In this document: one piece after another, positions 8,501 through 33,701 of the stretch
How the letters are laid out: the number at the start of each line of letters is the position of its first letter
Numbering within the stretch: the stretch's first letter is position 1
IMG/VR virus record: IMGVR_UViG_3300025120_000254
Location: 1-33,857 of that record
Strand: one strand, 5' to 3'
Length of the DNA stretch: 33,857 nt
Origin: a virus
Notes under the pieces: generated by a model
What the model was told of the DNA's origin: nothing
Databases searched by the model: none
The model's input: only the letters and a program-made list of their open reading frames with translations
Program-made: the position numbers and the translations under genes

Positions 8501-11500
8501 TGTTTCGTATAATTTGTATGATCCTGACTTGGTCGATGTAGCAGTAATTGATGTGCTAGGACCATAGAATGTTGCAGTGTACCCATCGAATGTGTATGTG
8601 TTTGTTGTGCCTGACCCACCATTCTGGCTATCCCATATTTCTGCCTGTGTTTGGCTTGAGAACAGAGGATAGTAGTAACCATACGTCCCTGATGTGGAAC
8701 CACTTGAACTTGTCGCCTGTAGTTGGAATGGTCCTGTCGATGCCACTGTCCCGCCAACTATTGTAACGGTTGGTGTTTTGGTGTAACCCGAACCCCCTGC
8801 TGTCACAGTGATAGATGTAACGTACTTCTTGTGGTAATCAACCCACATCTGCCATGGATACTCGGTAAGTTTAGCTGTGTCCAAATCAACGTTCAATGGT
8901 CTGATCTTGCCTGTGGCTGAGTCATAGAAGGTTGGGTTGTCAAAGTCAGAGAACAGTCCATCCTGTGTTTCGGTCTTGTCGTAACCAAGTCGGTACTCTC
9001 TTAATTTTGTATGGAAAGGTTTGACCTCATTGATATAACTCTCTATCCAACTGTCTGTTCCTGTCGTGTAAGTTTTTCTCTGGTCCAGTTGTCTCACTGA
9101 ATTCTTAACATTGATGAATGACGTTTTGAACATCCAGTCAACGTAAGTCTGTTCCGAAAGGACTTTCCTCAGTCCAGTAAAGAACAGTGTGTTGTACTCG
9201 ATGGCCAAGTCGTTAATGAATAGGTCATCCCTCAATGCTGTCAAAATTTTTCTCGTCTCTGTACTTGGTTCTTGGTCAAAGAAGTTGTCGTCAAAATTAT
9301 CAGCGCCTGCAAAGCCCGTGGCGTCCTGAGCGTAGTCATACAGTTTAGTGCTCAATCTTATTGTGCCATTCTCCGTTCCAACATTTGTATATCCTGTTGC
9401 AGTCTTCATGAAAAGTTTCCATCCACCTGTGTCAGCACTTGTAACCTTCACATGTTTGCCTATTGCTAGGTCAAGCGAGTCAAGTTCATATTGGAAGGTT
9501 ACCTGTTTGTCTATCTTGGTGTTTTCATCATGTAACATTCCGTGGACTGCTGGATCTGTACCGTACCAATCTGTGTAAGTCCAATACGCTGAAGTGTTGT
9601 AAGTTTGTAGTTTTGTTCTAGTAAATTCTGTGCCATCCCATGTGTATATTGCCCAATAATTGTTGGCTGTCTCATCTGCTTTAACCAGATACTTCACACT
9701 GCCTGATAGGTCCGCTGTATTCAAATAAGTCAGTTCCGCGTAAGTGTCGATTGTTGCGTCCCATTCCAGACTCTGTGCAGTAGGTTCAGGTTCTTTGGAA
9801 TCTAAGTTGGTCAAGTTTATTTGCCCAACCAATTGGTTCTTCTTAAGCACTGTGTTTGAGTAATCTATTATCTCCTTGAGTGCCGAATACCTGTCTACGT
9901 ACCAACTCTGTCTAGGTCTCACATTACTTCCGTATCTCTCATTGACTGGCAACTCGGGATCAGGAACAAGATCTCCTGTGTCGTTTTTGCCTACTAGTGA
10001 ATCCCACCAACGTGCTTCCACCGAAACACCTGGTCTGAAATCCTCGTCTCCCTCTCTGGCCAACTTCCAGATGCTGTGTGCGTCACCTTCGAAGGCATTT
10101 GTCCTAATGTCTATGTTTAGAACTATGTCGTCATTGACCAGATCGTTTACATTAAAGATCTGCAGTTTGTTCGTGTCAGTGATCGCATAGTATTTGAAAT
10201 CAAAACCAATTGGGTTTGTTATAAGGTTGGCAACATACGCCACTGTGTTCTTCCTTTTTCCGTTCTGGGGTAGGGTTGATTTTCCCTTGACCCAGTAGTA
10301 ATAGTAGTTCACGAATCTGTCTAATCTCGAATCGTATCTCTGCTTGACAGTGTACTGTGAATCATCGCCATACAAAGGAGTACCAGAAATTGTCTCTGTT
10401 GTTCCTTCCGGTCTCAGGTTCCATTCACTTGGAAGCAATCGCGATTCGGTCCATTCATACACATCTACACTCGAACCTGGGAAAAGTTTTCCCCAGTTAT
10501 TTTGTTTGTACTCCTGTGTATCTTGTTCATACCATAACCATTTCACGGTCGAAAGATCCCACCATACCTCGCCGATGTGATCCTCGGCCCATGGTGTCTT
10601 ACTATTTGGGTTACTACCAAAGTTATAAGTAGCCGGATCCCATGCTGTCTTAATGTCGATCTCTCTGTCAGCAACACCTAGTATCCTTCCTTTGATTGGA
10701 TCATAAAGATCGTAGTGATCCCTGATCTGTTTACTCTTGTTGTTAAACTCGAAAACTTGCCCTAATTTGTCTACATCTATTAATGCCGTCTCTGTGGTTA
10801 GATTTTTCCAAGCATACTCGCCGTTTGTAGTCAAATCAAAATTTGTCACAGTGCCGTCATCAGCTATTCCGGTGTTACCCTCATCTTTTGGTGAGCCAAC
10901 CAACACTTCGTTGTCTATTATGCATACCCCACGTCCAAAGTCGTCGTTCCCTGACACACTGTCTGTGACCAACATGTCATCTATCACAAATTTCGTGTTG
11001 TACATGGTGGCGGTAAATGCACCGCCGGATCCTGTGTTGAGGTCCACTATGTCAGTGTCCTGCAGGTCAAAAGTGGTCTCTCCAGAGTCAAACTTCATCT
11101 CCCTAAATGTTGCAAACTGTTCTGCCCCTATGACCAACCTTTTGCCTTCTTGATTGATATCAAGAGTTGTCCCGAACTTCATGTTGTTCTGTGTTTCCGG
11201 TGCCAGTATGGTTTGTTGTAGAGTGTAAGTATTTGTTGATGCGTCAGCATTCCACTTGTAGTAGTACACTGCTCCACCGTCTATCTGGCTGGTACTGCCG
11301 TCATCCACACCCGGTGCACCTATTATCAATGTGGTGCCATCCTTGCTCATTGCAATACTTTCACCAAACCCCGTGTTCAATGATGAACCGTCTGCTGATA
11401 CGCCTGTCAGCGTCTGTGTAAGTGCAAATGAATTCTGTGTGCTTCCATCATTGCTCTGTGAAGTCCTTCTGAATATTTCTACCTTGCCGGCGTTGCCCGG

Positions 11501-14500
11501 TGCCAGTGAACTGACTGCCAATATATCGCCGTTGTCATTTGCGGCCAATCTGTGTCCAAACCTGTGTCCTTCGCCACTGTCAGGTGCTTCTATTGTGTAG
11601 TTCTGTGTCCAGGTATCATAAGTTGAACCGTCCGCTCCAACACCCCAAGTGTACATGTACACTCTGCCCTGGTCACTATCATGACCTGGTGCTGATATGA
11701 AAAGATATTTGGTTGGTGTTGTCCTCACAGAATCTGTGCCTGGTTCCGATATCTTGTGTTGCCAACCAAAGTTAAGTCCGTCATTTGATGAGGATCCATC
11801 TGTTGGTGGTGAAATTGTGTTTAGGATTCCGTATTTGAACGAGGCAGGATCCCATAGATACACTTTGACTAGACCACTGTTCAACTGCCTTGTACTTCCA
11901 TCTGAATCAAGTGTGTTAGTGTAGGGTGCGCCTGCAACCACATAGTTCTCATCTGTGCTGATGGACAGTGATTCACCGAGTCTACTGGTGTTGTCATCGT
12001 TCTCTGTCATTGTTACCGTCGCTTGTTGTAAAAAAGTTGTGCCTGCGTTTGCGGAACTCCTGAAGAAGAAAGCGAGCTCTCCCTGCCCTTTACCTGGAGC
12101 GGATACAACCATGGCTCTTCCGTCATTACGTGCCACTATTCTGTGTCCAAATTCCTGTTCTGCAGTGGTGGTGTCGGGCGAAAGTATCAAACTTCTAGTG
12201 TATGGATCTTGCTTTTCGTAAACACGCCACAGGCCTGAACTGTCTGCGTCTGCGAACACTGTGTCTCCGGCTTGTTCTATTGCTGTGTTCTTGTCTCGGT
12301 AGGCACTGTAATCAATAAGATCGTTAACGTTATCCATTGAGCTTAACCTCACTGACACGAATTTGTAAACGTTACCATAGCTATCTGCAGTTGATCCGTC
12401 TTCCAGTGCCGGTATGAAACCTACATTGCCTGTGTAGTCTATGATCACTGTTTTGTGGCTTGGTGTTGCTTTAACTTGATACACACCGTTAAGCGACGCC
12501 TCTTCGCTGTTTGAGATGGCAAAGTAGTCCGCCAGTGTGGTCGTCGAACCCGCTGACAGATTGTGTGATCCTGTGAATGTGATCTCCAACTGTGTGTTCT
12601 CGTTGATCAGTACCAGCGTTGATATCTTTATGCCTGCACTCGTGACCCTGAATACGTCCCAGTCTTTATTGGTCTTGTTTGCAATCCAAATCAACTCATT
12701 GGCAGTGATTGAATTTATATCAAGATTAACTAGGTCTGTAATATCAAATGCAGTGTGTTGCACTTGATTTAATTGTGGGTATCCTGCAGTTTTAAAAATC
12801 TGCGAGATGTCCCTACTCACACCTTCCTTGGTGTAGTCCAATCTGCTGAACGTACTGGTTGCTGTGTAGTCGACAGGTTTGTAGTAGAAATTTGCCTTGG
12901 CTATGCCTTGTGATCCTTTGTACGACACCGTGTCGTTGGTGTTGTCTAGGAGTTCTATGCTCTGCGGATTTTTCCTTATCTCGTTATCTTTGAGCACTAT
13001 CTGTACGTTTTCAGTTGAGTCGGTGTTTCCGAAAGCACCTGTCCTTATCATCCATTCAGGATAGAGGGCCAGATTGATATCTTCTCCCTCGTACTTGGCC
13101 TTCAATATTTTGTTTATGGCGTTCTGTGTGCCCTTTTCTCTGATGTAACCTTGATAGAACTTGTATTGAGACACATCGTTGACGAAAAGATTTTCCAAAT
13201 AGTCTCTGCTTTGATATCCGATCAACCTCTGAGCCAGCTGTTGTTGTGATTCATCAAAGTTGTTGCTTTCAAGTTCGTAGAAATCGTTGAACTGGGCTAT
13301 CTTGTATTCGAAGTTTGGAATAAGTTGTGGTGCTGGCTTGTCATCTTTTTGTGTCCAGTTTGCGGTAACAAACGTTGACCCGGAGTTTTGATTAATCTTG
13401 GAAACGTAAAACTTGCCTTGGTATTCAACGCTGTCCCCTATCCTGTAGTCTGTGTTGGCAAGCCAATAAGTGACCTGTGCGGCATCAAACACGAAACCTG
13501 GTGCATAGTAGTCACCGTTCCATCCTGCTGTCTTCCATCCTACCAACTTCAATCTCTGCTGTCTGAAACCGGTTGATGGCTCGTAAATTATGTCTGAGAA
13601 CACCGTGTTGTTGTCAAAAAGCAATAGGTGTTCTTTCTGCACTGTGTTCAGGGCTACATTGTACAGTCCCACAGTGTCTGATTTAATTGCTAGTTCGAAG
13701 GTTTTTCCTATCCTTTTAGTTGACAACTCTCCAATGTCTATCTTTCTACCACCCGAATCAAGTATCGAGTAGTCTCCTGACAGATTCCTCAACTTACCAA
13801 CCACACTGTTTTCAGTGTCAAGTTCGAATCCATCTGCGGCCGGAGATACAGTCACAGCCGAGCCTGGTGCCCATTCCTGTGTGGTCCAAAACAAGAACTC
13901 CCTTACTGCATTTTCCCAGTTCAGTGTTTCTTTAAGTTCTGTTGAAAATTTGTTGAATTTGAATCCCTGTGATTCCAACCAGTTACCGTATCCAAATAGG
14001 AAATCTGTAACGTCTTGTATTGTGTTGAAAATATGTCCATAAGGAATGGTCTGTGTGACTTCTTGATATGTTGCATATCTTTTTACTTGTAATGACCCTG
14101 GTACAGACACTGGTGCCTCTGTCGCAGTCTTTACCGGATAGTTAAAATTAAAATATGGTTTGATTGTGCTGTAACCTAGAACTTTGTATCCTCCTAACAC
14201 GGTGGATCCATCTTGACTGATGTCTGTGTTCTTCTCTATTAGGACTCCTGAGTAGTAAAAACTTTCAACAGGGTTTGATGTCCTGAATAAGATCTTGTAG
14301 TTCTCGTCAGGAATAAATTTAGATCCTGCTGTGGATCCAGGCGACACACTGTCTGTCAACACTTTTATGTTTTCTTTGTCTGTGAAACCACCTAGCTTGT
14401 AAGACAACTGTACTTTCAAATCTTTCATCTTATCATAATAGAAAACTTTAGCATCAAGATTCCTTGACACCAAGTAGTTCACTACATAAGGTTGGTAACC

Positions 14501-17500
14501 AGCTGTCTGGTATCTAGTTGTGATACCTGTCGCTGTGTCTGTTTCCGTTTCTAGGTGGTATTTGGCAGTTGCCAATGTCCTTCTTAAACCTGTATCTGTG
14601 TCAATTTGATTTCCAGAAACATTTGTTGTAAGTCTTGACGGATCAAAAAAGTTTGAAAAGAATTTTGCTGGCTTGGTCAAAGCAAGTGTCTTCATTGCAG
14701 TGAATGGGAATGAGCTGGATCTCCTCCATGCCGTCTCTGCTGGAGCTTGATCTCCAAACTTCCATGCATTCTGTCTGCCCGGAATGTCATAATTTGCAAC
14801 TAATTTAGCCCCCAAAGGATCTAAAAGGTTACCCGATGCATCAACTGGTAGATAAGACTTGATACCTGGCTTGCCGTATCTTCCCGGCTCAGTTTCTATT
14901 GCCGTCCATAGAATATCATTCGCCGACGTGTATGGTGCTGGTCCGTAAAGTGTCTCCCAGTCTGTTGGCTTCTCTGAATGCCCAAACATCTCCCATGGTC
15001 TCACGTGAGGGGCGTCTGTGTCATAGAAATATTTGTATATGCCTCTCCAGTGTCCTGGTAAGTTTTCGTCTATAAGTCTGCCTCTTGATCTTGCGTAGTT
15101 GTAAGTGAATGGAGATCCTTCCGTGAACGCAGTGTTGTTGATGTACTGAACGTTGTTCCTGCCCGCCCATTCATAAAAATCAGTGCCCATTACGTTATTG
15201 ATTTGATTCAATGTGTATTCTGTAGATCCAAATGCACTAGGCATCACGTCATTGATGTCAATCAAACTTGCATCGTAAGATGTTTTAAGATTGTTGTATA
15301 TTCTTTTTTCTAATTCTAAAATAAGAGCATCACGTTCGTCGCCGTATGCCTTGATTATAGACCCGTCGTGCTTCCTGATGACAGCTGTGTCTGTCAGATA
15401 GGTTGTGTCTGTGAATGTTTCAGGAGTAAATTTTGGATACATGCCCAATTTGGTCGGTGATGGAGGCATGTAACTACCTGTGGTGTCTCCGTAGTCTTTT
15501 ATTACAACTTTATCACCTTCTACTAAGGCCTTTGATATAACAACCGTGTCATCTACTGTGCTGAACGTGTAGTCTGTGCCTAGCAACAATTGAACGCCGT
15601 TAAGGTACACATACACAGCTCTGTTGCTTGTTGTGGTGATGCTGTGTTGCGAATCTAATGCATATTCAGTTTGGGACGCACCCATAACCGTGTATGATCT
15701 CGTAGATACGTTCTCTCCCCATCCTATCATATCTTCGTAATAGAAAGGGAAACTGCTGTTCCTTCCTGGAGTGATTGCAGTTATTATTTCGTCCACCCTG
15801 TCAGCGGCCACACCCTCATATGCCGTCCCTATAGCATGTGTCAGGAATGCATTGTACCATTTCTCGTACTCACGGCTGGCGTAGTCTATCGCGGTGATGG
15901 CATTTGCATCTTGATCTATAAGGTTGAATACAGCAGGAAGCAACGGTGCTTCATGTTGATGAATGCTACCACCCTTAAGTCTAGCGTCCGGTTTGTCCCT
16001 TAGGTTTGAAACACCTGGGATAGCGCCTGTAACATCTTGATTTCTATCTAGTATGTCTCTAACGTGATTTAAAATTTGTCCAAATGTGAAAGTGCCCAAC
16101 TGTTGGTTGAGACTGTTTGTTGATAAATTTTGTGGCACTTCATATATGCCTTTGGTGCTTACCTTGTTGACACTGCTGTAGCCTGCTATCTTTACCTGGT
16201 CGTCCACGTCCAATTCTTTTACGAACTTCACATATCTGTTTGTTGTGCCGTTGACTAGTGTGTAATCGGTGGTCAACGTCTTCCTTATTCCATTCACAGA
16301 TACTGATGTCTCTAGATCTGTAAGTGAAGCCGACTCCTTGTAGAAGTCTATTGGGAACAACTGTTTCTCTGTGGCGTCTACTATATAGGTCCTTACCACA
16401 CGCTGTTTGCTGTCGGTTGTTCTTTTAATCCAAGAACTTCTAGAGTTGTGGGTTGTACGTCCTGTAGTGTAGTGTAAGTGTCCTTCTCCTAATTTTTTAG
16501 TGACAGTGGTTGTCCCACTCTTGTATGTAAAACTGCCCGATGTGTGATCTGAGTCAAACACTATGTCACCCACATTGTTTATGGTGTTGTATTTCACTTT
16601 TATGCCCAACACTGTATCTTTTGTGGCAGTGTCCGACGTTGCGAATTCAAACACCTTGGCTCCTGCGAATGAGGAATTTGGATAGGTTGTTGCGTCATCG
16701 AATGACACGTGATTGTTGTCAAACATGCTGAACAATGGTTGTTGGTTAACACCCGTCTTCTGTTGCGATTCCTTCCATGAAGTAGTTGCAAGATCATAAA
16801 AGAAAGTCTTTCCTTGGTTATTTGTCCCGAACTCTATAAACACACTGTCATTAACTCCTGGAACGCCGTCATCTTCTTGTGTCAATGAAATGACCTGTGA
16901 ACTGTCCCCCGCATTAGCAAAGCTGACTTTGTATATCCTGCCCTTCACCGTTGGGTCAGTGTCAGCCGCGAATATTACCCTCATGCCTTCCGCCAGTGCA
17001 AGACCATCGACTATGTAACCTGTTTGGAGAACAACGTTGCTGAATGCATCCGTTGTCACTGTGTCGTAAAGCGTGACCGACCGCTTGGCCACTATTCCGT
17101 GATTGTATAGTGCAAGTCCAGAATCAAATTCTATGATCGGTCTCTTTGCCCTGTCGTCTTCGTTCAAAGTTGGAGTGTAACCTCCCACCCTAGCTGTTTC
17201 CTCTATGATAGATTTGTGGAACCACCTGTTGTACCTGGACCATGCGTTTTGATCCAATGAATCTCTTTTTATTGTGATGTAATCTGTGGTTTCTGGAGTG
17301 TAGTACGCCTTCGCATACGGTCTTGAGTCATACCCTACCGAATCATACAGTATAGTTGATTCTGTGGCATAACTGGCAGGAGTGATAAGATCATCTATGT
17401 CTGTGAGTGTGATCCCTTCGCCGACCCCTTCCACATAATACTCTTTGTTTTGATATGCGGTTGGTACCTTAGAGCTCGTAAACTTGACCTTCATTCCGTT

Positions 17501-18463
17501 TGAAAGATCCACTGTCCTTAGGCTGTAATTTTTCACACCTATTATATCATTCTCAGGATCTATGTCAGCCGTGGTAGTGATATCTCTGATCTGAAGTATA
17601 CCATACATGGCATCGTGATTTCCACACTGATAATACAAAGTGTCTGGTGCACCTGTAGTAGGCACTGTGAATGTCACTGTTCCGTAATCAGTTCCGTTGT
17701 TTGTCACACCCGTATCAAATATAGTAGATGTTGACCCGTCCTCAGACACCTTGCTCTTGTAAGGTTCGGTCATTATCCAGAAAGGATGTCCTTTGACATT
17801 TACGTTGAATTTGTATGTGTTGCCCCTGTACAGTTTTAGTATCGGATTCCTCTCATTTTCTCTGTGTGGGAAACTGTAAGCCCTTGCAGAACTTCCATCG
17901 CTTTCTGCTATCTCTACACTGTATTCTGCCACTGCCGATGGTCCAACAGAATCTATCTCAATAGATCCAGGTCCTTCCGGCACCCAGTAGTACTCTCTGT
18001 AATTGACCAATTTGTCATAGTCAATTGCTGGATTCCAGCTGTACACTGTTTCTTTGTTTAGCTTGTCATGGTTGTCAACGTTACCACCGAAGTATTTGAT
18101 CTGGTTGATGTAGTCGTCATAGGTACCTGTGAATTTTACCTGATCCTCTGGGTTAATCGACGTTGTGTCCTTGTCCGTGTAAGTGACTGCTGGTTCCAGT
18201 TGGTATGACATCCTATCCCTGCTGGTAGCAGTCAAATATCTGTCGTTGACATCTCTGGTGTAGGCGTCCTGCCTACCTATAAATCCATCCAGTCTCTCCA
18301 GCGAACCTTTCTGCACCAACGGATCCATTGTACTTGCAAGAAATCTTTGGTTGCTGTCTGTCCTGTAAAATGAAGGTAGGTGTTGAACAGTTCTCCGGTA
18401 CTCGTTGGTACCTTGTTTTACAACTTCATTACTTGTTAATGGATTTGTTGGACTGTCAGCCAT
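5585..18463 (-). CDS. Giant multidomain baseplate/tail structural protein (4292 aa), in the gp7 position
   Basis: One uninterrupted frame takes up about 38% of the window. It directly follows gp6 (TAATG junction), the place of the wedge protein gp7 in T4, but it is about four times longer than T4 gp7 (1032 aa). Domains visible by eye: cupredoxin-like, residues 180-295 (His226, Cys280, His283, Met286); a segment with AWSRYNRWFHKSIIEE and RAKRPIIEF, near 407-446; CBM5/12-like segments near 1663-1710 and 3400-3448; FG-GAP-like propeller repeats, about 2100-2570; GGSGYTKTPTVTIVGG at 3223-3238; repeated GDGSTxxF beta modules from about 3555 to the end; and an FIDKERIEYF...RRGTLGT module at 4128-4154. 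DGST/DGSS tetrapeptides occur about twenty times. It is probably a wedge-attached scaffold carrying host-binding domains. The gp7 equivalence is by gene order only. Confidence 0.8.
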   Translation of the reverse strand: MADSPTNPLTSNEVVKQGTNEYRRTVQHLPSFYRTDSNQRFLASTMDPLVQKGSLERLDGFIGRQDAYTRDVNDRYLTATSRDRMSYQLEPAVTYTDKDTTSINPEDQVKFTGTYDDYINQIKYFGGNVDNHDKLNKETVYSWNPAIDYDKLVNYREYYWVPEGPGSIEIDSVGPSAVAEYSVEIAESDGSSARAYSFPHRENERNPILKLYRGNTYKFNVNVKGHPFWIMTEPYKSKVSEDGSTSTIFDTGVTNNGTDYGTVTFTVPTTGAPDTLYYQCGNHDAMYGILQIRDITTTADIDPENDIIGVKNYSLRTVDLSNGMKVKFTSSKVPTAYQNKEYYVEGVGEGITLTDIDDLITPASYATESTILYDSVGYDSRPYAKAYYTPETTDYITIKRDSLDQNAWSRYNRWFHKSIIEETARVGGYTPTLNEDDRAKRPIIEFDSGLALYNHGIVAKRSVTLYDTVTTDAFSNVVLQTGYIVDGLALAEGMRVIFAADTDPTVKGRIYKVSFANAGDSSQVISLTQEDDGVPGVNDSVFIEFGTNNQGKTFFYDLATTSWKESQQKTGVNQQPLFSMFDNNHVSFDDATTYPNSSFAGAKVFEFATSDTATKDTVLGIKVKYNTINNVGDIVFDSDHTSGSFTYKSGTTTVTKKLGEGHLHYTTGRTTHNSRSSWIKRTTDSKQRVVRTYIVDATEKQLFPIDFYKESASLTDLETSVSVNGIRKTLTTDYTLVNGTTNRYVKFVKELDVDDQVKIAGYSSVNKVSTKGIYEVPQNLSTNSLNQQLGTFTFGQILNHVRDILDRNQDVTGAIPGVSNLRDKPDARLKGGSIHQHEAPLLPAVFNLIDQDANAITAIDYASREYEKWYNAFLTHAIGTAYEGVAADRVDEIITAITPGRNSSFPFYYEDMIGWGENVSTRSYTVMGASQTEYALDSQHSITTTSNRAVYVYLNGVQLLLGTDYTFSTVDDTVVISKALVEGDKVVIKDYGDTTGSYMPPSPTKLGMYPKFTPETFTDTTYLTDTAVIRKHDGSIIKAYGDERDALILELEKRIYNNLKTSYDASLIDINDVMPSAFGSTEYTLNQINNVMGTDFYEWAGRNNVQYINNTAFTEGSPFTYNYARSRGRLIDENLPGHWRGIYKYFYDTDAPHVRPWEMFGHSEKPTDWETLYGPAPYTSANDILWTAIETEPGRYGKPGIKSYLPVDASGNLLDPLGAKLVANYDIPGRQNAWKFGDQAPAETAWRRSSSFPFTAMKTLALTKPAKFFSNFFDPSRLTTNVSGNQIDTDTGLRRTLATAKYHLETETDTATGITTRYQTAGYQPYVVNYLVSRNLDAKVFYYDKMKDLKVQLSYKLGGFTDKENIKVLTDSVSPGSTAGSKFIPDENYKILFRTSNPVESFYYSGVLIEKNTDISQDGSTVLGGYKVLGYSTIKPYFNFNYPVKTATEAPVSVPGSLQVKRYATYQEVTQTIPYGHIFNTIQDVTDFLFGYGNWLESQGFKFNKFSTELKETLNWENAVREFLFWTTQEWAPGSAVTVSPAADGFELDTENSVVGKLRNLSGDYSILDSGGRKIDIGELSTKRIGKTFELAIKSDTVGLYNVALNTVQKEHLLLFDNNTVFSDIIYEPSTGFRQQRLKLVGWKTAGWNGDYYAPGFVFDAAQVTYWLANTDYRIGDSVEYQGKFYVSKINQNSGSTFVTANWTQKDDKPAPQLIPNFEYKIAQFNDFYELESNNFDESQQQLAQRLIGYQSRDYLENLFVNDVSQYKFYQGYIREKGTQNAINKILKAKYEGEDINLALYPEWMIRTGAFGNTDSTENVQIVLKDNEIRKNPQSIELLDNTNDTVSYKGSQGIAKANFYYKPVDYTATSTFSRLDYTKEGVSRDISQIFKTAGYPQLNQVQHTAFDITDLVNLDINSITANELIWIANKTNKDWDVFRVTSAGIKISTLVLINENTQLEITFTGSHNLSAGSTTTLADYFAISNSEEASLNGVYQVKATPSHKTVIIDYTGNVGFIPALEDGSTADSYGNVYKFVSVRLSSMDNVNDLIDYSAYRDKNTAIEQAGDTVFADADSSGLWRVYEKQDPYTRSLILSPDTTTAEQEFGHRIVARNDGRAMVVSAPGKGQGELAFFFRSSANAGTTFLQQATVTMTENDDNTSRLGESLSISTDENYVVAGAPYTNTLDSDGSTRQLNSGLVKVYLWDPASFKYGILNTISPPTDGSSSNDGLNFGWQHKISEPGTDSVRTTPTKYLFISAPGHDSDQGRVYMYTWGVGADGSTYDTWTQNYTIEAPDSGEGHRFGHRLAANDNGDILAVSSLAPGNAGKVEIFRRTSQSNDGSTQNSFALTQTLTGVSADGSSLNTGFGESIAMSKDGTTLIIGAPGVDDGSTSQIDGGAVYYYKWNADASTNTYTLQQTILAPETQNNMKFGTTLDINQEGKRLVIGAEQFATFREMKFDSGETTFDLQDTDIVDLNTGSGGAFTATMYNTKFVIDDMLVTDSVSGNDDFGRGVCIIDNEVLVGSPKDEGNTGIADDGTVTNFDLTTNGEYAWKNLTTETALIDVDKLGQVFEFNNKSKQIRDHYDLYDPIKGRILGVADREIDIKTAWDPATYNFGSNPNSKTPWAEDHIGEVWWDLSTVKWLWYEQDTQEYKQNNWGKLFPGSSVDVYEWTESRLLPSEWNLRPEGTTETISGTPLYGDDSQYTVKQRYDSRLDRFVNYYYYWVKGKSTLPQNGKRKNTVAYVANLITNPIGFDFKYYAITDTNKLQIFNVNDLVNDDIVLNIDIRTNAFEGDAHSIWKLAREGDEDFRPGVSVEARWWDSLVGKNDTGDLVPDPELPVNERYGSNVRPRQSWYVDRYSALKEIIDYSNTVLKKNQLVGQINLTNLDSKEPEPTAQSLEWDATIDTYAELTYLNTADLSGSVKYLVKADETANNYWAIYTWDGTEFTRTKLQTYNTSAYWTYTDWYGTDPAVHGMLHDENTKIDKQVTFQYELDSLDLAIGKHVKVTSADTGGWKLFMKTATGYTNVGTENGTIRLSTKLYDYAQDATGFAGADNFDDNFFDQEPSTETRKILTALRDDLFINDLAIEYNTLFFTGLRKVLSEQTYVDWMFKTSFINVKNSVRQLDQRKTYTTGTDSWIESYINEVKPFHTKLREYRLGYDKTETQDGLFSDFDNPTFYDSATGKIRPLNVDLDTAKLTEYPWQMWVDYHKKYVTSITVTAGGSGYTKTPTVTIVGGTVASTGPFQLQATSSSGSTSGTYGYYYPLFSSQTQAEIWDSQNGGSGTTNTYTFDGYTATFYGPSTSITATSTKSGSYKLYETPTVTAATATATIQDGKVSRITVTGIGANYTATPKVVISGGASDGSTPTDTARAYANLDNDLVRGFDTTVKFDRVSSTSRVTDWTASTSYAYNDLLRHANQLYKVTNAFTSTTDFDEGIGNLYKVYGNEIGLTAADRTKGFYTPGSGMPGNELDQVMTGVDYGGTMVTGLLFSQEAGWDKAGWYDFPWDNYGESRIKAFRADGTNNDYTFDTAPANTDVYQVYITQDDSTRKKLNDVIRGDGSTVRFAISEIPELNALVEFIPFDDDGVLTPTDDRTLDSIVKGGLFTSALGHAPSDIVLEGDDFVSPDTSYAPEEVVPGQMFDTVDIKVYTSPESGVPFISEKNYRGDGTTTVFSIGDFPGTLGSVTVAVDGSVKKGSALDSTVSDYTIDLANKTITFDSAPANHSQISTKVFAISGENYRVLNTFTGDGSTTAYLTSTRGEFNLDSTSSDIYVTVDGVPTTAYSSTTSANTITVTFTTAPGADTYIQIAGFNKSTTSTRSFASVRSEAITYDGSTNRYSLTYPPGAIGPFSGLTIVELNGRVLRGPDNTYYVGDGSTYTYGVVSGLEDDSTVDPSKTISSASQVEVFVNGVQKDLNTHYTVDTGNNNINFRTDSVPTATDVICISTLVDHQYFVDGGSDADLVLVTSAITSPYSLSASDVLSVTTFNNALGMKQRREVLEGRGSGVFKLRFDTLNAGYTYAWLNGVQLIQGSDYTVSGNTITVNGRTIVSTDRLDVMYFAVDTAVSATGFRIFKDMMNRTFYKRISKTSTSKLTLDMTAGTQTITVEDAALLPTPNASANVPGVVFIDKERIEYFTKSGNTLGQLRRGTLGTGIKEHGSGTEVVDASGTQTIPYADTVYTNTFTGDGSTATFALSQTPASASELDIFIGGQRLLLTSEDGSTINYSVDGSTTAVTLSTVPASGTQVKILHKRGQVWYTAADGNPADGKGLQASTTQQAEFIANEPTNAPE
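5594..7801 (-). repeat. Tandem GDGSTxxF beta modules at the C-terminus of the giant protein
   Basis: From residue about 3555 to the end the pattern GDG(S/T)TxxF recurs every 70-120 residues (RGDGSTVRF, RGDGTTTVF, TGDGSTTAY, YDGSTNRYS, VGDGSTYTY, TGDGSTATF). Each is usually followed by a V(F/Y)VNG or similar strand and a DYT strand. These are small beta sandwiches found in tandem in many phage tail proteins. The run suggests a long flexible arm built of repeated modules. Confidence 0.65.
10754..12166 (-). repeat. FG-GAP-like beta-propeller repeats within the giant protein
   Basis: Residues about 2100-2570 carry at least five repeats. Each has an FG(H/E/T)xxx opening and a (V/L)(V/I)(S/G)AP-like strand. 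Examples are FGHRIVARNDGRAMVVSAPG, LGESLSISTDENYVVAGAP, FGHRLAANDNGDILAVSS, FGESIAMSKDGTTLIIGAPG and FGTTLDINQEGKRLVIGA. Several are followed by VYxYxW. This is the signature of integrin-alpha-type FG-GAP blades, which fold as a propeller and often bind ligands or calcium. The repeats are strongly diverged at the DNA level. Confidence 0.7.
13328..13486 (-). other. Carbohydrate-binding-module-like segment (CBM5/12 type) within the giant protein
   Basis: Residues 1660-1712 contain YWLANTDYRIGDSVEYQGKF, then YVSKINQNSG and NWTQKDD. The spacing YxxGDxVxYxGxxYxx...xxW is that of small chitin/cellulose-binding modules (CBM5/12). A second, weaker copy lies at residues 3400-3448 (WTASTSYAYNDLLRHANQLY). 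Such modules in a baseplate protein would fit binding of surface polysaccharide. The identification is by motif only. Confidence 0.45.
17579..17926 (-). other. Cupredoxin-like domain within the giant protein
   Basis: Residues 180-295 of the giant protein read as a small beta sandwich. It contains GHPFWIM (His226), a GTVTFTVP strand, and the closing motif YYQCGNHDAMYG (Cys280, His283, Met286). This His...Cys-x2-His-x2-Met set is that of type 1 copper proteins of the plastocyanin/azurin fold. The same pattern occurs in many marine bacterial extracellular proteins. All four candidate ligands are present, so copper binding is possible. The domain may equally serve only as a structural or adhesive sandwich. 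Confidence 0.65.
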
Positions 18464-27445: not shown

Positions 27446-28429
27446 ATGAAGAGAGTCAAGTACCTAAACAACAGAGATCTGCTGGCACAGATACACGCCA
27501 GCAAGAACACGTACTGTTCTTACGTCACACCCGAGGACGCACAATATGATTTGATAGTGCCCAATCTCAAGAAGGTCAACGCCAGTGCAGTGGCACAGGC
27601 ACGTAAGGCCAAGGCCAAACGCTTGACACAGGAGGCATGGGAGGAGGCCAAGGCCGCAGGACTTAAGAAGATCAAACTGGCGGACTACACTGTGTCGCCA
27701 AGGAAAATAGAAAAGACGGACCTCGTTTTCAGGGTCATGATGTTTGATCACGTGCCCATGGACGCCGAAAGAAAAAAGAATCCAAAGACCACAGCGGATC
27801 ATCATTCGAAAGTCAACTTCCCCCCTTTCCAACACTACAAGTTTGACAAGAAAGACAAATTGGTCTGTATTGGCAAATCACACTGGGTTGGTGGAATGAA
27901 CAACGGACACTTCTCTGTCGATCACGGCAAGATGACAAACCAGCTGGCCATGATGTATATGAAACTGTGTGAGAGATATGGTACGAGAGCAAACTGGAGA
28001 GGATACACCTACAATGACGAGATGCAATCACAGGCGCTGATGCAACTGTCACAGATTGGTCTGCAATTTGACGAATCAAAATCAGACAATCCTTTTGCAT
28101 ATTACACGGCGGCCATAACAAACAGTTTCACGAGGATACTGAACATAGAAAAGAAAAATCAAGCGATCAGAGATGACCTGCTGGAGTTCAATGGTATGAT
28201 GCCAAGTTTCACAAGACAGAACGAGAACGAGACGGCCGGTCCATCGTATCAGAAAAGGATGAAGACTGCACACGGCGATGTGCATGAGATCAACAAGACC
28301 GCCCTTAAGAAGTTGAACAAAACCCTGAAGAAAAAAGGCAAACTCGACGCAGATGATTTCGATGATGTCAAGTTCAAGAACAAAATAGATATGACCGATC
28401 ACAAACCAATTGTAAAAAAGAAATGGTAA
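27446..28429 (+). CDS. gp55: Late transcription sigma factor gp55, with long N-terminal extension
   Basis: A 327-residue protein. Residues about 160-245 match the sigma region 2-like core of gp55 (YTYNDEMQSQALMQLSQIGL, then FDESKSDNPFAYYTAAITNS and RILNIEKKNQAIRDDLL). gp55 replaces the host sigma factor and recognises the TATAAATA late promoter. T4 gp55 is 185 residues; here about 150 residues precede the core (LNNRDLLAQIHASKNTYCSY and an Ala/Lys-rich helix at 45-75). The basic end HKPIVKKKW does not look like the acidic/hydrophobic clamp-binding tail of T4 gp55. The ribosome site AAAGGAA is 2 bases before ATG 27446. First gene of the plus-strand operon, with gp47 3 bases downstream. Confidence 0.85.
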   Translation: MKRVKYLNNRDLLAQIHASKNTYCSYVTPEDAQYDLIVPNLKKVNASAVAQARKAKAKRLTQEAWEEAKAAGLKKIKLADYTVSPRKIEKTDLVFRVMMFDHVPMDAERKKNPKTTADHHSKVNFPPFQHYKFDKKDKLVCIGKSHWVGGMNNGHFSVDHGKMTNQLAMMYMKLCERYGTRANWRGYTYNDEMQSQALMQLSQIGLQFDESKSDNPFAYYTAAITNSFTRILNIEKKNQAIRDDLLEFNGMMPSFTRQNENETAGPSYQKRMKTAHGDVHEINKTALKKLNKTLKKKGKLDADDFDDVKFKNKIDMTDHKPIVKKKW

Positions 28430-28432
28430 TTA

Positions 28433-29455
28433 ATGGCATTCTTTAAGAAAGTCGCATGTTTCACCGACATACACTTCGGACTGAAGGGCAACAGTCGTAT
28501 ACACAACGACGACTGTGAGTCATTCGTACAATGGTTCATAGAACAGGCCAAAGCAGAAGGCTGTGAGACCTGTATATTCCTAGGCGATTGGCACCATCAT
28601 AGATCCGCAACAAACGTCTCCACGATGAACTACACAGTGTCCAACATGGAACGACTGGGTGCGGCATTTGAAAAAGTTTACGTGATAATGGGAAACCATG
28701 ATCTGTATTACAGAGATAAAAGGGAAATTAATTCAATGGAGTACATCAGGAACATACCAAACATACACATCGTGAATGAATGGTTAGTCGAAGATGATGT
28801 TGCTATAATCCCATGGATAGTGGAAGACGAATATAAAAAGATACAGAAAATGAAACAGAAGTATGTGTTTGGTCATTTCGAACTGCCGTACTTCAAAATG
28901 AACGCAATGGTCGAGATGCCCGATGTAGGTGGTATACAGACAGATCATTTTGCAGGATGTGGGAAGGTGTTCTCAGGACACTTCCACAAGAGACAGTACA
29001 TGAAGAACGTGACTTACATGGGTAATGCGTTCCCCCACAACTACGCAGATGCTTGGGACGATGACCGAGGCATGATGATACTGGAGTGGGGTGGTGAACC
29101 AAAGTTTGTGAACTGGCCAGACATGCCAAGATACATCACTATAAAAGTCTCGGAACTGCTAGAGGATCCGGACAAGTACCTGAAACCTAAAATGTATGTG
29201 AGGGTGACCCTGGACATAAAAATTTCATACGAAGAAGCAAACTTCGTGAGGGAAACATTCATAGACAAATACCAATTGAGGGAACTACAACTGATCCCAG
29301 AGCAGGTTGATAACGCACAACAACCGTTGGTAGAAGTACAGAAGTTTGACAGCGTTGATCAAATCGTTATCAAGCAGTTACAAGGGGTTGACTCAGAGGT
29401 GTACGACAAGAACATATTAACAGCAATTTACAACGATCTCGATGTCACGAATTAG
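28433..29455 (+). CDS. gp47: Recombination endonuclease subunit gp47 (Mre11/SbcD-like)
   Basis: A 340-residue protein, nearly the length of T4 gp47 (339). The calcineurin-type phosphoesterase motifs are all present: DIH (Asp12, His14), GDWHHH (51-56), GNHD (87-90), GHFE (147-150) and GHFH (182-185), which bind the two metal ions. With gp46 it forms the Mre11-Rad50-like complex that resects DNA ends for recombination-dependent replication and helps degrade host DNA. It starts 3 bases after the gp55 stop. The end overlaps a small gene by 14 bases. Function is firm. Confidence 0.95.
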   Translation: MAFFKKVACFTDIHFGLKGNSRIHNDDCESFVQWFIEQAKAEGCETCIFLGDWHHHRSATNVSTMNYTVSNMERLGAAFEKVYVIMGNHDLYYRDKREINSMEYIRNIPNIHIVNEWLVEDDVAIIPWIVEDEYKKIQKMKQKYVFGHFELPYFKMNAMVEMPDVGGIQTDHFAGCGKVFSGHFHKRQYMKNVTYMGNAFPHNYADAWDDDRGMMILEWGGEPKFVNWPDMPRYITIKVSELLEDPDKYLKPKMYVRVTLDIKISYEEANFVRETFIDKYQLRELQLIPEQVDNAQQPLVEVQKFDSVDQIVIKQLQGVDSEVYDKNILTAIYNDLDVTN

Positions 29456-29606
29456 TAAAAAAAAATTGATCAAAGTTCTTAAGGGTGATCTTGAGGAACC
29501 TGTAACCAAACAATCACTTTTGGATCAACTTGCAAAACCTGTAACCCAAGAAGAGTGGTTACGTGGATATAACGAATGGAAGAAGAAACAACTTGCTAAC
29601 AATTAA
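29442..29606 (+). CDS. Small hypothetical protein (54 aa) between gp47 and gp46
   Basis: This short frame starts at ATG 29442, 14 bases inside the end of gp47, and ends at TAA 29606, inside the beginning of gp46. The protein starts MSRISKKKLIKVLKGDLEEP and ends EWKKKQLANN. It is charged and probably helical, with no known motif. It fills the otherwise uncoded gap of over 100 bases between gp47 and gp46. T4 also keeps small genes (46.1, 46.2) at this place, but sequence likeness was not established. The ribosome site is poor, so expression would depend on coupling to gp47. Confidence 0.6.
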   Translation: MSRISKKKLIKVLKGDLEEPVTKQSLLDQLAKPVTQEEWLRGYNEWKKKQLANN

Positions 29607-31368
29607 AGAACTCACAGTAAAAAACTTCATGAGCGTGGGTAACCAGGCCCAGGCCATAGACTTCTCTAACAAGAGCCTAGTGTTGGTAATTGGTGAGAAC
29701 ATGGATCTAGGTGGTGATGATGCAGGTGCTAGGAATGGCACTGGTAAGACCACAATAATAAATGCACTATCCTATGTGTTCTTTGGTGAGGCGCTGACAA
29801 ACATCAGAAGAGATAACCTTGTGAACAAGACCAACGAGAAGGGAATGTTGGTCGGTGTGAAATTCATAAAGAACGGAATAACATACACAATAGAAAGAGG
29901 CAGAAAGCCACAAGTATTTAGATTCTATGCCAACGACATAGAACAAAAGACCGAAAGCAACGAAGCACAAGGCGAGAACAGAGAAACACAGGTAGAGATC
30001 AACAAACTGATGGGAATGACACATTCAATGTTCAAGAACATCATAGCACTGAACACGTACACACAGCCGTTCTTGTCAACTAAACAAGCAGAACAACGAG
30101 AAATTATCGAACAGTTACTTGGTATAACTTTGCTTTCACAAAAAGCAGATCTGTTAAGAGAAAAACAAAAAGCAACCAAACAGTTGCTCACAGAAGAAAA
30201 ATTAATGATAGATGCCAAAGTCGTATCAAATGCAAAAATACAGGAATCGATAGAAAGTTTAAAAATAAGATCCAATGCTTGGACAAAGCAAAAACAGGAC
30301 GACGTAAAAAGTTTCCAAGAAGCAATAGCAGAGCTGGAAAAAGTGGACAGTGAGATAGAGATTGCCAAACACAAGAAATTACGGAAACACAACGAGATGC
30401 AGACAGCGTTGAGAAGCCTTGAAAAAGAAAAAGCATATCATGAAAATTCGTTGACCAAAGCGGAAACTACAGTGGATAAAACTGAAAAAGACCTAGAATA
30501 CGCAGGACAGCAAAGGTGTCCAACCTGTGAACAAGAACTGCATGACGACAAGCACGAACACTTGGTTGGGAAATTGAAAACACAACTGTCGGAATCAAAA
30601 GAGTACGTTGCAAAACTAAAGTCAGATCTCGCAAAAATACAAGAGGGCATAGACGAAGTCGGGGACTTAGGACAACTGCCAGACACATACTATGACACAA
30701 TCGACGAAGCGTACAATCATAAAGGTTCGCTACAGGATCTCATGAGACAGCTGGCACAGACCGAGAAGAAAGAGGACACGTATGCAGAACAGATTGAGGA
30801 AATGAAAAAGTCAGCTATACAAGAAGTAGATTACGAGAAAGCCAACGAGCTAGAAGACTTGCACAGGCACCAAGAATTTTTGTACAAACTTTTGACAGCA
30901 AAGGACTCATTCATAAGAACAAGGATCATAGAACAGAACTTGACATACTTGAATCAGAGGCTGGCATACTTCTTGGGCAAGGTGAAACTGCCACACACAG
31001 TGACTTTCCAATCGGACTTGAGTGTGCGTATCGAGGAACTGGGCAGAGAACTAGATTTCGATAATCTAAGCAGAGGTGAGAGAAATAGATTGATTTTAAG
31101 TTTAAGTTGGGCATTCAGAGATGTATGGGAAAGCCTTTATCAACAGATCAACTTGCTGTTCATAGACGAGCTCGTGGATGCTGGTATGGACATATCCGGT
31201 GTTGAGAGTTCAATGGCCGTGCTTAAAGACATGAGCAGGACACAAAAGAAGAACATATTCCTGATCTCCCACAAAGATGAGTTGGTAAGCAGGGTGAATA
31301 GTGTACTAAAAGTGGTAAAAGAGAATGGCTTTACCAATTACGCAAATGATGTAGATATCATCGTATAA
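29593..31368 (+). CDS. gp46: Recombination endonuclease subunit gp46 (Rad50/SbcC-like ATPase)
   Basis: With the TTG start at 29593 the protein has 591 residues and begins (M)LTIKELTVKNFMSVG, the usual family start. A GTG at 29563 would add 10 residues but overlap the small gene by 44 bases instead of 14. Visible parts: Walker A GARNGTGKTT (45-54), a coiled coil with the zinc hook CPTC (309-312), the ABC signature LSRGER (492-497), Walker B LLFIDE (521-526) and the switch ISHKDE. It is the ATPase partner of gp47 in DNA end processing. GGAAGAAG precedes the TTG start. Function is firm; the start is uncertain. Confidence 0.93.
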   Translation: MLTIKELTVKNFMSVGNQAQAIDFSNKSLVLVIGENMDLGGDDAGARNGTGKTTIINALSYVFFGEALTNIRRDNLVNKTNEKGMLVGVKFIKNGITYTIERGRKPQVFRFYANDIEQKTESNEAQGENRETQVEINKLMGMTHSMFKNIIALNTYTQPFLSTKQAEQREIIEQLLGITLLSQKADLLREKQKATKQLLTEEKLMIDAKVVSNAKIQESIESLKIRSNAWTKQKQDDVKSFQEAIAELEKVDSEIEIAKHKKLRKHNEMQTALRSLEKEKAYHENSLTKAETTVDKTEKDLEYAGQQRCPTCEQELHDDKHEHLVGKLKTQLSESKEYVAKLKSDLAKIQEGIDEVGDLGQLPDTYYDTIDEAYNHKGSLQDLMRQLAQTEKKEDTYAEQIEEMKKSAIQEVDYEKANELEDLHRHQEFLYKLLTAKDSFIRTRIIEQNLTYLNQRLAYFLGKVKLPHTVTFQSDLSVRIEELGRELDFDNLSRGERNRLILSLSWAFRDVWESLYQQINLLFIDELVDAGMDISGVESSMAVLKDMSRTQKKNIFLISHKDELVSRVNSVLKVVKENGFTNYANDVDIIV

Positions 31369-31380
31369 TTAGGTGTATGT

Positions 31381-32463
31381 ATGTTTTGCTCACAACCATT
31401 TAATCACATAGATATTGTTGTAGAAAACGATAAGGTTATGTTGCAACCCTGCAACGTCTGGAACACAAGAAAATTCAGTATTGAGGAATATAAAAAAAAT
31501 CTAGGTGAATTGAAAGACGTGTTGGCTACTACCTATCATCACCCCGGCTGTAAAATTTGTGTCGACGAGGATAAAAAAAACATCAGATCCAGACGTATTG
31601 CACAGAACGAATTTGCCAATGATAACGATCTTTCACTGCAAAAACTACAAAGTTTGGGTGTGAGATACGGTACTTTGTGTAACAGCAAATGTATGATCTG
31701 TGGTCATACAAGATCTTCATCCTGGGTCGTAGATTCAGAGAAACTTGGAATTCATGTAGAAGACCGATACAAATACAAGAAAAATCTATTGCCGGGCGTT
31801 GATGTGTTCTTTGACAATTTTGATCTAGATGATCTAAAATATGTTGAATTTCATGGCGGAGAACCTTTGATGCAAGATTACCCTGAACAATTTTTGAAGA
31901 GAATCAAAAACTTAGATAAGTTAATTGTTAAATTCAACACCAACCTGACTGTTTTACCGTCTGCTGAGTTGAACCTTTTATTAAAAAAATGTAAAAGGGT
32001 GGACTTCCTTTTGAGTGTTGACGATACCGGTGACAGATACGAAATACTGAGATATCCAGGAAAATGGGACACATTCACACAGAACCTATCCACACTGAAA
32101 CAGCAGGGACACAGAATAATGGCCTACAACTGTCTATCATCGTTAAACATCTTTTATGCAGTAGAGTTTTACGAATGGGCTATAAAAAACTTTGGTACTG
32201 AGGTGCATTCTCAGTTTGTTGTTGACCAAGAACACCTGGACATAAGTTATCTTCCACAACACGCCAAAGACATAGTGTTAGAAAAAATAGAAAAACACAA
32301 AGGTAAAATATTTGATTCTATTCGGCAAAGGCTTAACATAAAAAAAGAATACCGTATAGGGGTATTGTTAAAATACATCGCAGATCTAGATGGCATAAGA
32401 AAAACAAACTTCGCAGAAACTTTTAAGGAATGGCACACAATATTAAACAAAAAAATAGTATGA
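31381..32463 (+). CDS. Radical SAM protein with twitch-type auxiliary cluster domain
   Basis: A 360-residue protein. The radical SAM cluster motif is CNSKCMIC (Cys100, Cys104, Cys107), followed by FHGGEPL (158-163) for SAM binding. Before it lie Cys3 in FCSQPF, Cys24 in QPC, and CKIC (Cys57, Cys60), the layout of the twitch-type auxiliary iron-sulfur site in phage and bacterial radical SAM proteins. Such enzymes use SAM radicals to modify peptides, sugars or other substrates; the substrate here is unknown. It starts 13 bases after gp46, preceded by TTAGGT, and its stop overlaps the next ATG (ATGA). The cassette has lower G+C than gp55 and gp47, which suggests separate acquisition. Confidence 0.85.
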   Translation: MFCSQPFNHIDIVVENDKVMLQPCNVWNTRKFSIEEYKKNLGELKDVLATTYHHPGCKICVDEDKKNIRSRRIAQNEFANDNDLSLQKLQSLGVRYGTLCNSKCMICGHTRSSSWVVDSEKLGIHVEDRYKYKKNLLPGVDVFFDNFDLDDLKYVEFHGGEPLMQDYPEQFLKRIKNLDKLIVKFNTNLTVLPSAELNLLLKKCKRVDFLLSVDDTGDRYEILRYPGKWDTFTQNLSTLKQQGHRIMAYNCLSSLNIFYAVEFYEWAIKNFGTEVHSQFVVDQEHLDISYLPQHAKDIVLEKIEKHKGKIFDSIRQRLNIKKEYRIGVLLKYIADLDGIRKTNFAETFKEWHTILNKKIV

Positions 32464-32939
32464 ATGTATTGATCACAGGCGGTAACGGCAATCTAGCAAA
32501 CAGTTTGAAAAAGTACATAGACGGAGATTATTACGGCAAGGATGTGTTGGATCTTACTGATAGAAATTGCATAAGAAACTTGCCCATGTATGATGTGCTT
32601 ATACACACTGCCACTGGAAATAAAAAAATTAACGATAATTTGAACCTACTGTATAAGAAAGCCAAAAAAATATTTGTGTTCACAAGCAGACAAGGAACAT
32701 TTTTAAATTGGAAAAAACCGGCTAACATTGACTACGGATTAGAAAAATTATCTTTAAATTTTTTCACGTACCGACACAATATGGAAAATCATAATGCTCA
32801 AATATTTGAACCGGGACACATGGATTCACAAAAAGATTACGACGGAATCGCTGAAAAGTTCAATGAAATATATAAAGACTGGCAATTTACCAAAAATCAA
32901 ATATATGATCTGGTAAAAGATCAATATATTCCTTATTAA
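32460..32939 (+). CDS. Mini short-chain dehydrogenase/reductase-like protein
   Basis: A 159-residue protein starting MNVLITGGNGNLANSLKKYI. ATG 32460 is chosen because it forms an ATGA overlap with the radical SAM stop and begins directly at the first Rossmann strand; an in-frame ATG at 32430 would add 10 residues. Visible SDR features are TGGNGNLA (6-13, NAD(P) binding), Ser76, YGLEK (Tyr92-x3-Lys96, the catalytic pair) and EPGH near 117-120 at the place of the PG motif. SDR enzymes are usually about 250 residues, so this is a compressed version. It probably reduces or oxidises a carbonyl/hydroxyl on the product or substrate of the coupled radical SAM enzyme. G+C is about 31% over 32581-32940. 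Confidence 0.75.
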   Translation: MNVLITGGNGNLANSLKKYIDGDYYGKDVLDLTDRNCIRNLPMYDVLIHTATGNKKINDNLNLLYKKAKKIFVFTSRQGTFLNWKKPANIDYGLEKLSLNFFTYRHNMENHNAQIFEPGHMDSQKDYDGIAEKFNEIYKDWQFTKNQIYDLVKDQYIPY

Positions 32940-32944
32940 TCCAC

Positions 32945-32974
32945 TTGACAAAACCACTTCTTACGTGCTTTAAT
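32945..32974 (+). promoter_or_regulatory. Sigma-70-type promoter for the histone H1-like gene
   Basis: A perfect -35 TTGACA (32945-32950), an 18-base spacer and -10 TTTAAT (32969-32974). A start site near 32981 would give a leader of about 47 bases. This leader contains the palindrome TTAATTAA (32985-32992), a second GTTAAT copy, and CGTACG, which could be an operator. It differs from the late promoter type and suggests expression by the unmodified host polymerase. Confidence 0.6.
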
Positions 32975-33027: not shown

Positions 33028-33222
33028 ATGTCAAATGAAACACACGACGCTATAATGACAGCAATTCAAACTTACTCGGAAGAGAATGGGAAGTTCGTTG
33101 ATAAGGGTGTAAAAGCCTCTGCAACAAGAGCCAGAAAGGCCCTAGCAGAATTATCAAAACTGATCAAGTCAAGAAGAAAAGAAATACAAGAAGTTAAGAA
33201 CGCGGCAAAAACAGCGGCGTAA
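33028..33222 (+). CDS. Small basic histone H1/Hc1-like protein
   Basis: A 64-residue Lys/Ala/Arg-rich helical protein. The part GVKASATRARKALAELSKLI followed by KSRRKEIQEVKNAAK resembles the small bacterial histone H1-like (Hc1-type) family, which binds DNA without sequence preference. There is no membrane segment or signal peptide. AAGGAAGGA lies 7 bases before ATG 33028, the strongest ribosome site in the window. With its own promoter and a hairpin terminator the gene forms a one-gene unit that is probably strongly expressed. It could condense phage DNA or act on the host nucleoid; both are inference. The family call is by composition and pattern. Confidence 0.7.
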   Translation: MSNETHDAIMTAIQTYSEENGKFVDKGVKASATRARKALAELSKLIKSRRKEIQEVKNAAKTAA

Positions 33223-33247: not shown

Positions 33248-33277
33248 GACCCTCGGCTTACGGTCGGGGGTTTTTTT
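33248..33277 (+). terminator. Rho-independent terminator after the histone H1-like gene
   Basis: ACCCTCG pairs with CGGGGGT (one G-U pair) around a short loop and is followed by seven T. It lies 26 bases after the stop at 33222. The T run reaches the stop codon of the convergent nuclease gene (33276-33278), so the unit ends exactly at the gene boundary. Confidence 0.85.
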
Positions 33278-33683
33278 ATGACTTGAGGATTCCCTTGCCG
33301 TGTACCCTCACACGGATATGACCATTGTAGTAATCATTAGTTTCCAAGACCTTGCGTGAGAACTGTTCACGTGCCTCCACATAGGATAGTTCTGCTTTGG
33401 ACTTGCAGTAGAAAAGTATCTCCCTTGTGAATTTGTCTTTACCAAGTTTGTTGACATCCATGGTGAGATCATCACTGGACCCATAATAATCTTGCCAGTC
33501 AGAATCTACTTTGTATCTACGCTTGTTCTTTCTGCCTTTGAGTGGTGGACGACTTCTCTTGAATCTAGCAAGTTTCTTGCCTATGTACATCCTACCGTTG
33601 GTTGTATTTGTTATGAGATAAACAAATCCCACAACATCTTCCGGCATATTGGTAATTTCATTTCCTTGGTATGTCCAATGCAT
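33276..33683 (-). CDS. GIY-YIG-type endonuclease (homing endonuclease-like)
   Basis: With the ATG at 33683 the protein has 135 residues and begins MHWTYQGNEITNMPEDVVGF, a usual start for this phage family. A TTG at 33701 would add six residues. The GIY-YIG motifs appear as VYL (21-23) and YIG (33-35), with Arg40/Arg43, Glu103 in YVEAREQ and Asn120 as candidate catalytic residues. The segment SDWQDYYGSSDDL (61-73) is typical of small phage GIY-YIG proteins. The enzyme would cut DNA, possibly as a free-standing homing nuclease like the T4 seg genes or in DNA processing. It is convergent with the histone-like gene. Upstream bases TTTAAATACCGTT resemble the gp6 leader. Confidence 0.8.
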   Translation of the reverse strand: MHWTYQGNEITNMPEDVVGFVYLITNTTNGRMYIGKKLARFKRSRPPLKGRKNKRRYKVDSDWQDYYGSSDDLTMDVNKLGKDKFTREILFYCKSKAELSYVEAREQFSRKVLETNDYYNGHIRVRVHGKGILKS

Positions 33684-33701
33684 AACGGTATTTAAAGCCA
33701 A

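Follow-up and report, generated by a model that had tools for sequence, protein, structure and literature searches.

What do a radical SAM enzyme and a very short SDR-like protein do side by side in a marine T4-like phage, and do they do it together? The question is raised by the window, the whole 33,857-nucleotide stretch of viral DNA analysed here (IMG/VR record IMGVR_UViG_3300025120_000254), in which the two genes, hereafter rSAM and SDR-A, are coupled. An initial annotation had singled them out as a candidate for a phage-coded pathway and held that neither has a role in known T4 biology; both are indeed absent from classical T4. The pair proves to be real, conserved and unusual, and is located in an active exchange slot; it is not a dedicated, fixed pathway. 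Many rSAM genes in such phages have already been reported: one T4-like marine virus genome described by Nishimura et al. carries 12 of them (PMC5332604), and pelagimyophages possess rSAM cassettes within a hypervariable region (PMC7029224). In the literature searched, we found no account of the gp46-Hc1 slot, the mini-SDR family or the rSAM/mini-SDR pairing.

Organization of the locus

The left flank is formed by a gp47-like (SbcD) nuclease subunit (28433..29455, + strand; PHROG_100, E about 1e-69), syntenic in relatives, and by a gp46-like (SbcC) subunit (29563..31368, + strand; PHROG_77, E 3e-98), which is the left border of the slot; the recombination nuclease neighbours first recognized by eye are thus confirmed. 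The rSAM gene (31381..32463, + strand, 360 amino acids) starts 12 bp after the end of gp46 and is joined to the SDR-A gene (32460..32939, + strand, 159 amino acids) by an ATGA overlap, also present in the related locus L038. Both ORFs and their coupling are as originally described. The 159 residues are counted from the ATG within that overlap; a 169-residue SDR ORF with an upstream start at 32430 was rejected, since its added codons run through the last part of the rSAM gene in a different frame. The right border of the slot is a small basic protein resembling histone H1 (Hc1; 33028..33222, + strand; PF07432, E 4e-12), and a SegE-type GIY-YIG endonuclease gene (33276..33701, − strand; PF19835, E 1e-36) flanks the slot; both are syntenic in relatives.

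The G+C content is 35.8% in rSAM and 32.3% in SDR-A, for 43.5% in the whole window. The drop counted by hand in the initial annotation (~31% over 32581-32940 against ~51% over 27541-27780) was measured at 30.6% versus 50.4%. Only 0.36% of 360-nt segments are as low in G+C, and the minimum of the whole window, 29.7%, is found at 32621, inside the SDR gene.

A promoter-like element (TTGACA, 18 nt, TTTAAT; 32945..32974, + strand) lies upstream of the Hc1-like gene and was found in all 13 loci inspected. Its designation as promoter-like is based on this conservation, the number of sites in a promoter/terminator scan being no higher than in shuffles. In the relatives carrying the putative oxygenase described below, the antisense of this element encodes the first residues of that 181-residue protein (L002:3770-3806 and equivalents), and coding and regulatory constraints would overlap there. 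Elsewhere in the window, a single ORF of 4292 amino acids (5585-18463, − strand) stands amid structural genes, and positions 256-1689 (− strand) encode a glycine-rich protein whose C-terminal motif (CFIAGTMITMHDGSFKPVEQVDIGDEV) resembles, by eye, a Hint/intein-type domain.

The radical SAM enzyme

The rSAM protein matches NCBIfam NF033640 (N_Twi_rSAM) along its full length (residues 2-354 on profile positions 4-397), with 192.7 bits for a curated cut-off of 170 bits, and displays the same succession of an N-terminal cysteine domain and an rSAM core. The core cluster motif CNSKCMIC (CxxxCxxC; C100/C104/C107) and HGGEP, holding the GGE motif, are invariant among 14 rSAM sequences, and so are four more N-terminal cysteines (C3/C24/C57/C60), bringing the invariant cysteines to seven. 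These four are collinear with a relative that has a Pfam SPASM match at its N-terminus, and the N-terminal auxiliary Fe-S (twitch) domain that defines NF033640 is predicted here as well. The Pfam profile PF04055 is matched with E 4e-6 and 27.4 bits, slightly below the gathering score of 29.5 bits; a relative in L050 passes it with 40.9 bits. On the strength of its CxxxCxxC and GGE motifs and of the Radical_SAM profile, the window gene is predicted to be a member of the radical SAM superfamily. The fold of its AlphaFold model matches SuiB, BlsE, MoaA, anSME, SkfB and AprD4 (6fd2, E 4e-3), the pLDDT falling below 50 at residues 99-113, within the catalytic part. Profile similarity to MoaA, QueE and viperin is weak.

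The window protein differs from NF033640 in that its subclade (MFCxQPFNH...LQPCNVW) forms a separate branch, retrieved here only from uncultured phages, where it is coupled to mini-SDR genes. A single-sequence pattern search gave no match, and relatives were retrieved with an alignment as query instead of a single sequence; the best tblastn matches among 50,697 phage records were vibriophage rSAM proteins with only ~24% identity. A search of the genome collection, made as a test of cellular origin, did not find the subclade. Neither SDR-A nor the rSAM subclade occurs in 289 genomes of one bacterial class, in which the sole deep rSAM match lies on a phage-looking contig; phage contigs, the control of the SDR-A search, were detected.

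The mini-SDR

SDR-A shares with the RmlD-like and classical members of the SDR superfamily a Rossmann fold, a glycine-rich nucleotide motif (TGGxG) and the catalytic YxxxK with its upstream Ser/Thr, here predicted as Y92xxEK96 and T75/S76. These residues are invariant among 26 SDR sequences; the active-site motifs that had looked complete in both enzymes are therefore conserved in their relatives (14 rSAM, 26 SDR). The AlphaFold model (pLDDT 88.5) matches PDB SDR structures with E 8e-5 and TMq up to 0.74. The difference lies in size: SDR-A is only 159 residues long, its substrate-binding part is reduced, most of the usual region being missing, and in Pfam, NCBIfam and PHROGs it has no match above noise. 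Weak profile matches point to dTDP-4-dehydrorhamnose reductase and to the RmlD structure (E 0.027), and a relative in L033 weakly matches a PHROG epimerase (E 0.026); tblastn of SDR-A against the 50,697 phage records returned no match. Because its placement derives from fold and motifs, SDR-A is filed as an SDR-like fold belonging to no named family.

In comparisons with most relatives, both rSAM and SDR-A have pN/pS values of ~0.2-0.3, and their dN/dS is 0.04-0.14 in close pairs. Substitutions are mostly synonymous, which argues that both are selected and, by this measure, functioning genes.

An exchange slot between gp46 and Hc1

In the viral contig collection, relatives share the order gp47 - small ORF - gp46 - slot - Hc1 - SegE, with gp46 identities of 72-93% across related contigs. 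Cultured relatives are missing: among the matches listed, the best gp46 identity to a named phage is 48%. Two further viral contigs (L003=L011=L038 and L008=L016=L047) show the rSAM+SDR-A order of the window, so that the pair does occur together elsewhere. The 25 slots holding SDR-A are otherwise diverse, 20 containing a putative 2OG-Fe(II) oxygenase, three the rSAM and two neither. Other states comprise rSAM with a different mini-SDR (SDR-B), rSAM alone, rSAM with two unrelated genes, and the oxygenase without SDR-A; slots reduced to a single gene hold SDR-A (L018, L036), the oxygenase (L103, L106) or rSAM (L042-L044, L046). Mapped on the gp46 tree, the presence or absence of rSAM requires a minimum of 10 changes, and that of SDR-A a minimum of 8. 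As 22 of the 25 SDR-A slots are devoid of rSAM and 11 of the 14 complete rSAM loci are devoid of SDR-A, neither gene needs the other. What survives of the proposed phage-coded pathway is a set of real, conserved and coupled enzymes of named superfamilies; what does not is a fixed two-gene pathway. Moreover, a 196.6 kb relative (G313) has neither SDR-A nor a close rSAM copy, harbouring only more distant twitch rSAMs, and the pair therefore looks dispensable. Judged by these gene contents, the gp46-Hc1 space is an exchange slot in an uncultured group of marine T4-like phages, and the window is one of its content states. What this slot carries would be small sets of enzymes of carbon redox chemistry.

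In the L097 contig of G313, a reference for the group, the slot is occupied by the 181-residue gene overlapping an unknown 267-residue gene, and not by SDR-A. In two other contigs (L022:7225-8004, L023:1604-2383), an HNH/NUMOD3 endonuclease repeats at its C-terminus the last 12 residues of gp46 (ITNYANDVDIIV); this gene looks like a homing element inserted where gp46 ends, the downstream junction being restored by it.

Cyanophages possess endonuclease-flanked mobile metabolic cassettes, e.g. zwf/gnd (PMC3037559). The slot resembles the metabolic cassettes of marine T4-like phages, in that accessory enzymes replace one another at one given position, leaving decayed remnants, and an endonuclease gene lies alongside; it differs from them by its gp46-Hc1 position and by the enzymes involved. 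It offers a natural record of metabolic gene swapping at a single site, with intact, hybrid and decayed states side by side and a homing-type endonuclease adjoining them.

Partner enzymes

The commoner partner of rSAM is not SDR-A: it is SDR-B, which accompanies it in L041, L045, L048, L049, L050 and L083. SDR-B matches YdfG (E 3e-5), and hhalign gives a probability of 0.1% for SDR-A versus SDR-B, hence no detectable sequence relationship beyond the SDR type. The rSAM+SDR-B couple occupies three distinct positions, namely behind gp46, between SegE and Hc1, and behind nrdAB, which suggests that the two genes are mobile together. Phages of another group (L085, L086, L088) have SDR-B with an overlapping TauD gene (PF02668, E ~1e-19 in the two tested). 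As for SDR-A, its usual neighbour is the convergent gene of the 181-residue protein present in 20 slots. This protein has no Pfam, NCBIfam or PDB match, and one member only reaches PHROG_61 (E 0.04); its putative identity as a 2OG-Fe(II) oxygenase comes from an HxD...H...R signature (H111, D113, H163, R173) invariant in 10 sequences. Two mini-SDR lineages with no detectable sequence relationship are thus both found repeatedly next to a C-H activator, rSAM or a 2OG enzyme (a putative one for SDR-A). The loci are not independent counts, and the separate pairings number about four.

Origin of the rSAM/SDR-A junction

SDR-A usually lies directly 3' of gp46, with junctions such as ATAATAGTATGA, and in L045 the start of SDR-B overlaps the end of rSAM as AAAAATAGTATG. 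The window junction, AAAAAATAGTATGAATG, contains sequence of both types: ATAGTATGA is common to it and to the native gp46/SDR junction, while ATAGTATG is common to it and to the rSAM/SDR-B junction of L045. Comparison of these junctions designates the rSAM stop/SDR start segment AAAAAATAGTATGA (32448..32463, + strand) as a possible recombination point. The deepest rSAM branches carry SDR-B. A stump of SDR-B (KIVFSGNA*) persists behind rSAM in L039 and is its sole convincing remnant, since in L043 and L046 the bases resembling SDR-B can also be aligned to the oxygenase gene; L039 and L040 retain a broken start of the latter. The AU test of a single origin of the rSAM+SDR-A arrangement gave p values of 0.097 and 0.16. 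On these sequence comparisons, rSAM was probably joined to SDR-A by recombination at a short shared sequence, which would make the window pair a hybrid of the two arrangements. The rSAM+SDR-A arrangement is found only at the native site of SDR-A, and the pair could accordingly have come about by chance, through an upstream insertion.

Possible functions of the pair

Our favoured explanation, held tentatively with a probability of about 0.4, is that rSAM and the mini-SDR carry out a redox edit of a sugar-like substrate in two steps. The SAM-binding [4Fe-4S] cluster of rSAM would generate a 5'-deoxyadenosyl radical, by which a hydrogen would be taken from a carbon of the substrate; the N-terminal twitch cluster would handle the substrate or a second electron, and the intermediate would be a keto compound or a dehydrated one. 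The mini-SDR, an NAD(P)-dependent enzyme encoded by the same message, would then reduce the carbonyl, so that the substrate would be epimerised or deoxygenated overall, as with AprD4/AprD3. The 2OG-Fe(II) oxygenase would take the place of rSAM in sister phages. Computation shows what the genes are, that their motifs are conserved and under selection, that the slot turns over and that certain neighbours recur; the radical chemistry, the order of the steps, the sugar-type substrate and the joint action are what we infer here. The sequence of a radical step and an oxidoreduction, put forward in the initial annotation, remains plausible, as each mini-SDR lineage is repeatedly found next to a C-H activator.

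AprD4 and AprD3, a radical SAM diol dehydratase and an NADPH-dependent reductase, act sequentially on a sugar in apramycin biosynthesis (PMC5461906). In the window too, an rSAM gene and a predicted NAD(P)H reductase gene are neighbours, in an order kept in L038 and L047, and the rSAM model has AprD4 as one of its fold matches; however, the two pairs are compared here by analogy, and the phage SDR is very short. A sugar-like substrate is favoured, with modest confidence, because of family-level neighbours (carbamoyltransferase, epimerase, glycosyltransferase), evidence that does not come from this gene; the weak SDR-A matches to dTDP-4-dehydrorhamnose reductase point the same way. Two long relatives (G001, G004) have five twitch rSAM matches each, several in tandem with carbamoyltransferase, NDP-sugar epimerase and methyltransferase genes. 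In a Bacteriovoracaceae genome (G024), many twitch rSAMs lie close to genes for a carbamoyltransferase, a GT2 enzyme and ABC-2 export, and one of its proteins is 38% identical to a protein of the phage rSAM cluster. No glycan gene adjoins the rSAM+SDR-A pair itself. If the two enzymes do work together, they would represent a portable two-enzyme kit for carbon-centre editing in uncultured marine phages, and C-H activation would count unusually small SDRs among its partner enzymes.

A serious competitor, though one we would still bet against, is that rSAM, the mini-SDR and the oxygenase are each accessory genes in their own right, with unrelated jobs, which entered the slot via recombination or homing-endonuclease-driven conversion and overlap as a result of tight phage gene packing. 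The occurrence of each gene without the others, the repeated changes on the gp46 tree, the persisting SDR-B and oxygenase remnants and the SegE gene flanking the slot all agree with it. It fits less well with the rSAM+SDR-B overlap kept at several places, with the SDR-B/TauD overlap in an unrelated phage group, or with the C-H-activating enzyme adjoining nearly all mini-SDRs seen.

It is rather unlikely, in our view, that a minimal SDR without a substrate domain of its own works with whichever C-H activator is at hand, the O2-sensitive rSAM or the O2-dependent 2OG enzyme. Were the slot modular in this sense, rSAM and 2OG would stand in for each other at one step without being orthologous, and the choice of enzyme would possibly track oxygen or iron in the water of the host.

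Improbable is a modification of nucleotides or DNA bases tied to the recombination nuclease, altering phage DNA or dNTPs for protection or marking. The pair does sit behind gp46/47, rSAM+SDR-B follows genes read as nrdA and nrdB in L049/L050, the weak likeness of rSAM to MoaA, QueE and viperin would suit such a role, and bases are substrates of some 2OG enzymes. However, no glycosyltransferase, kinase or hydroxymethylase partner is found near the pair, NF033640 relatives adjoin carbamoyltransferase and epimerase genes, and no base-modifying family is matched above cut-off. Least likely of all is a RiPP-type maturase whose product on a virion or host protein is finished by the mini-SDR: the peptide maturases SuiB and SkfB are among the best fold matches and a PqqD-like protein is encoded close to two of the many twitch rSAMs of a bacterial genome, but these matches reflect a general rSAM/SPASM core, as BlsE, MoaA and AprD4 are matched too, and no obvious precursor-peptide or PqqD/RRE gene lies by the pair in the window, L038 or L047.

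A separate observation concerns L062 (G001:36000-55000), L063 (G004:2000-21000), L064 and L065, where up to five N-twitch rSAM genes form an overlapping tandem run. Carbamoyltransferase, NDP-sugar epimerase, methyltransferase, thioredoxin-reductase-like and, by eye, SGNH-like genes belong to the same run, which lies near tail-fibre-like genes and is likely a large phage-coded biosynthetic cluster. Phage-like contigs with an rSAM cluster of this type (L067, L068, L069) are binned in Rickettsiales, Betaproteobacteria and Pelagibacter MAGs, either as a hint of the host or as contamination.
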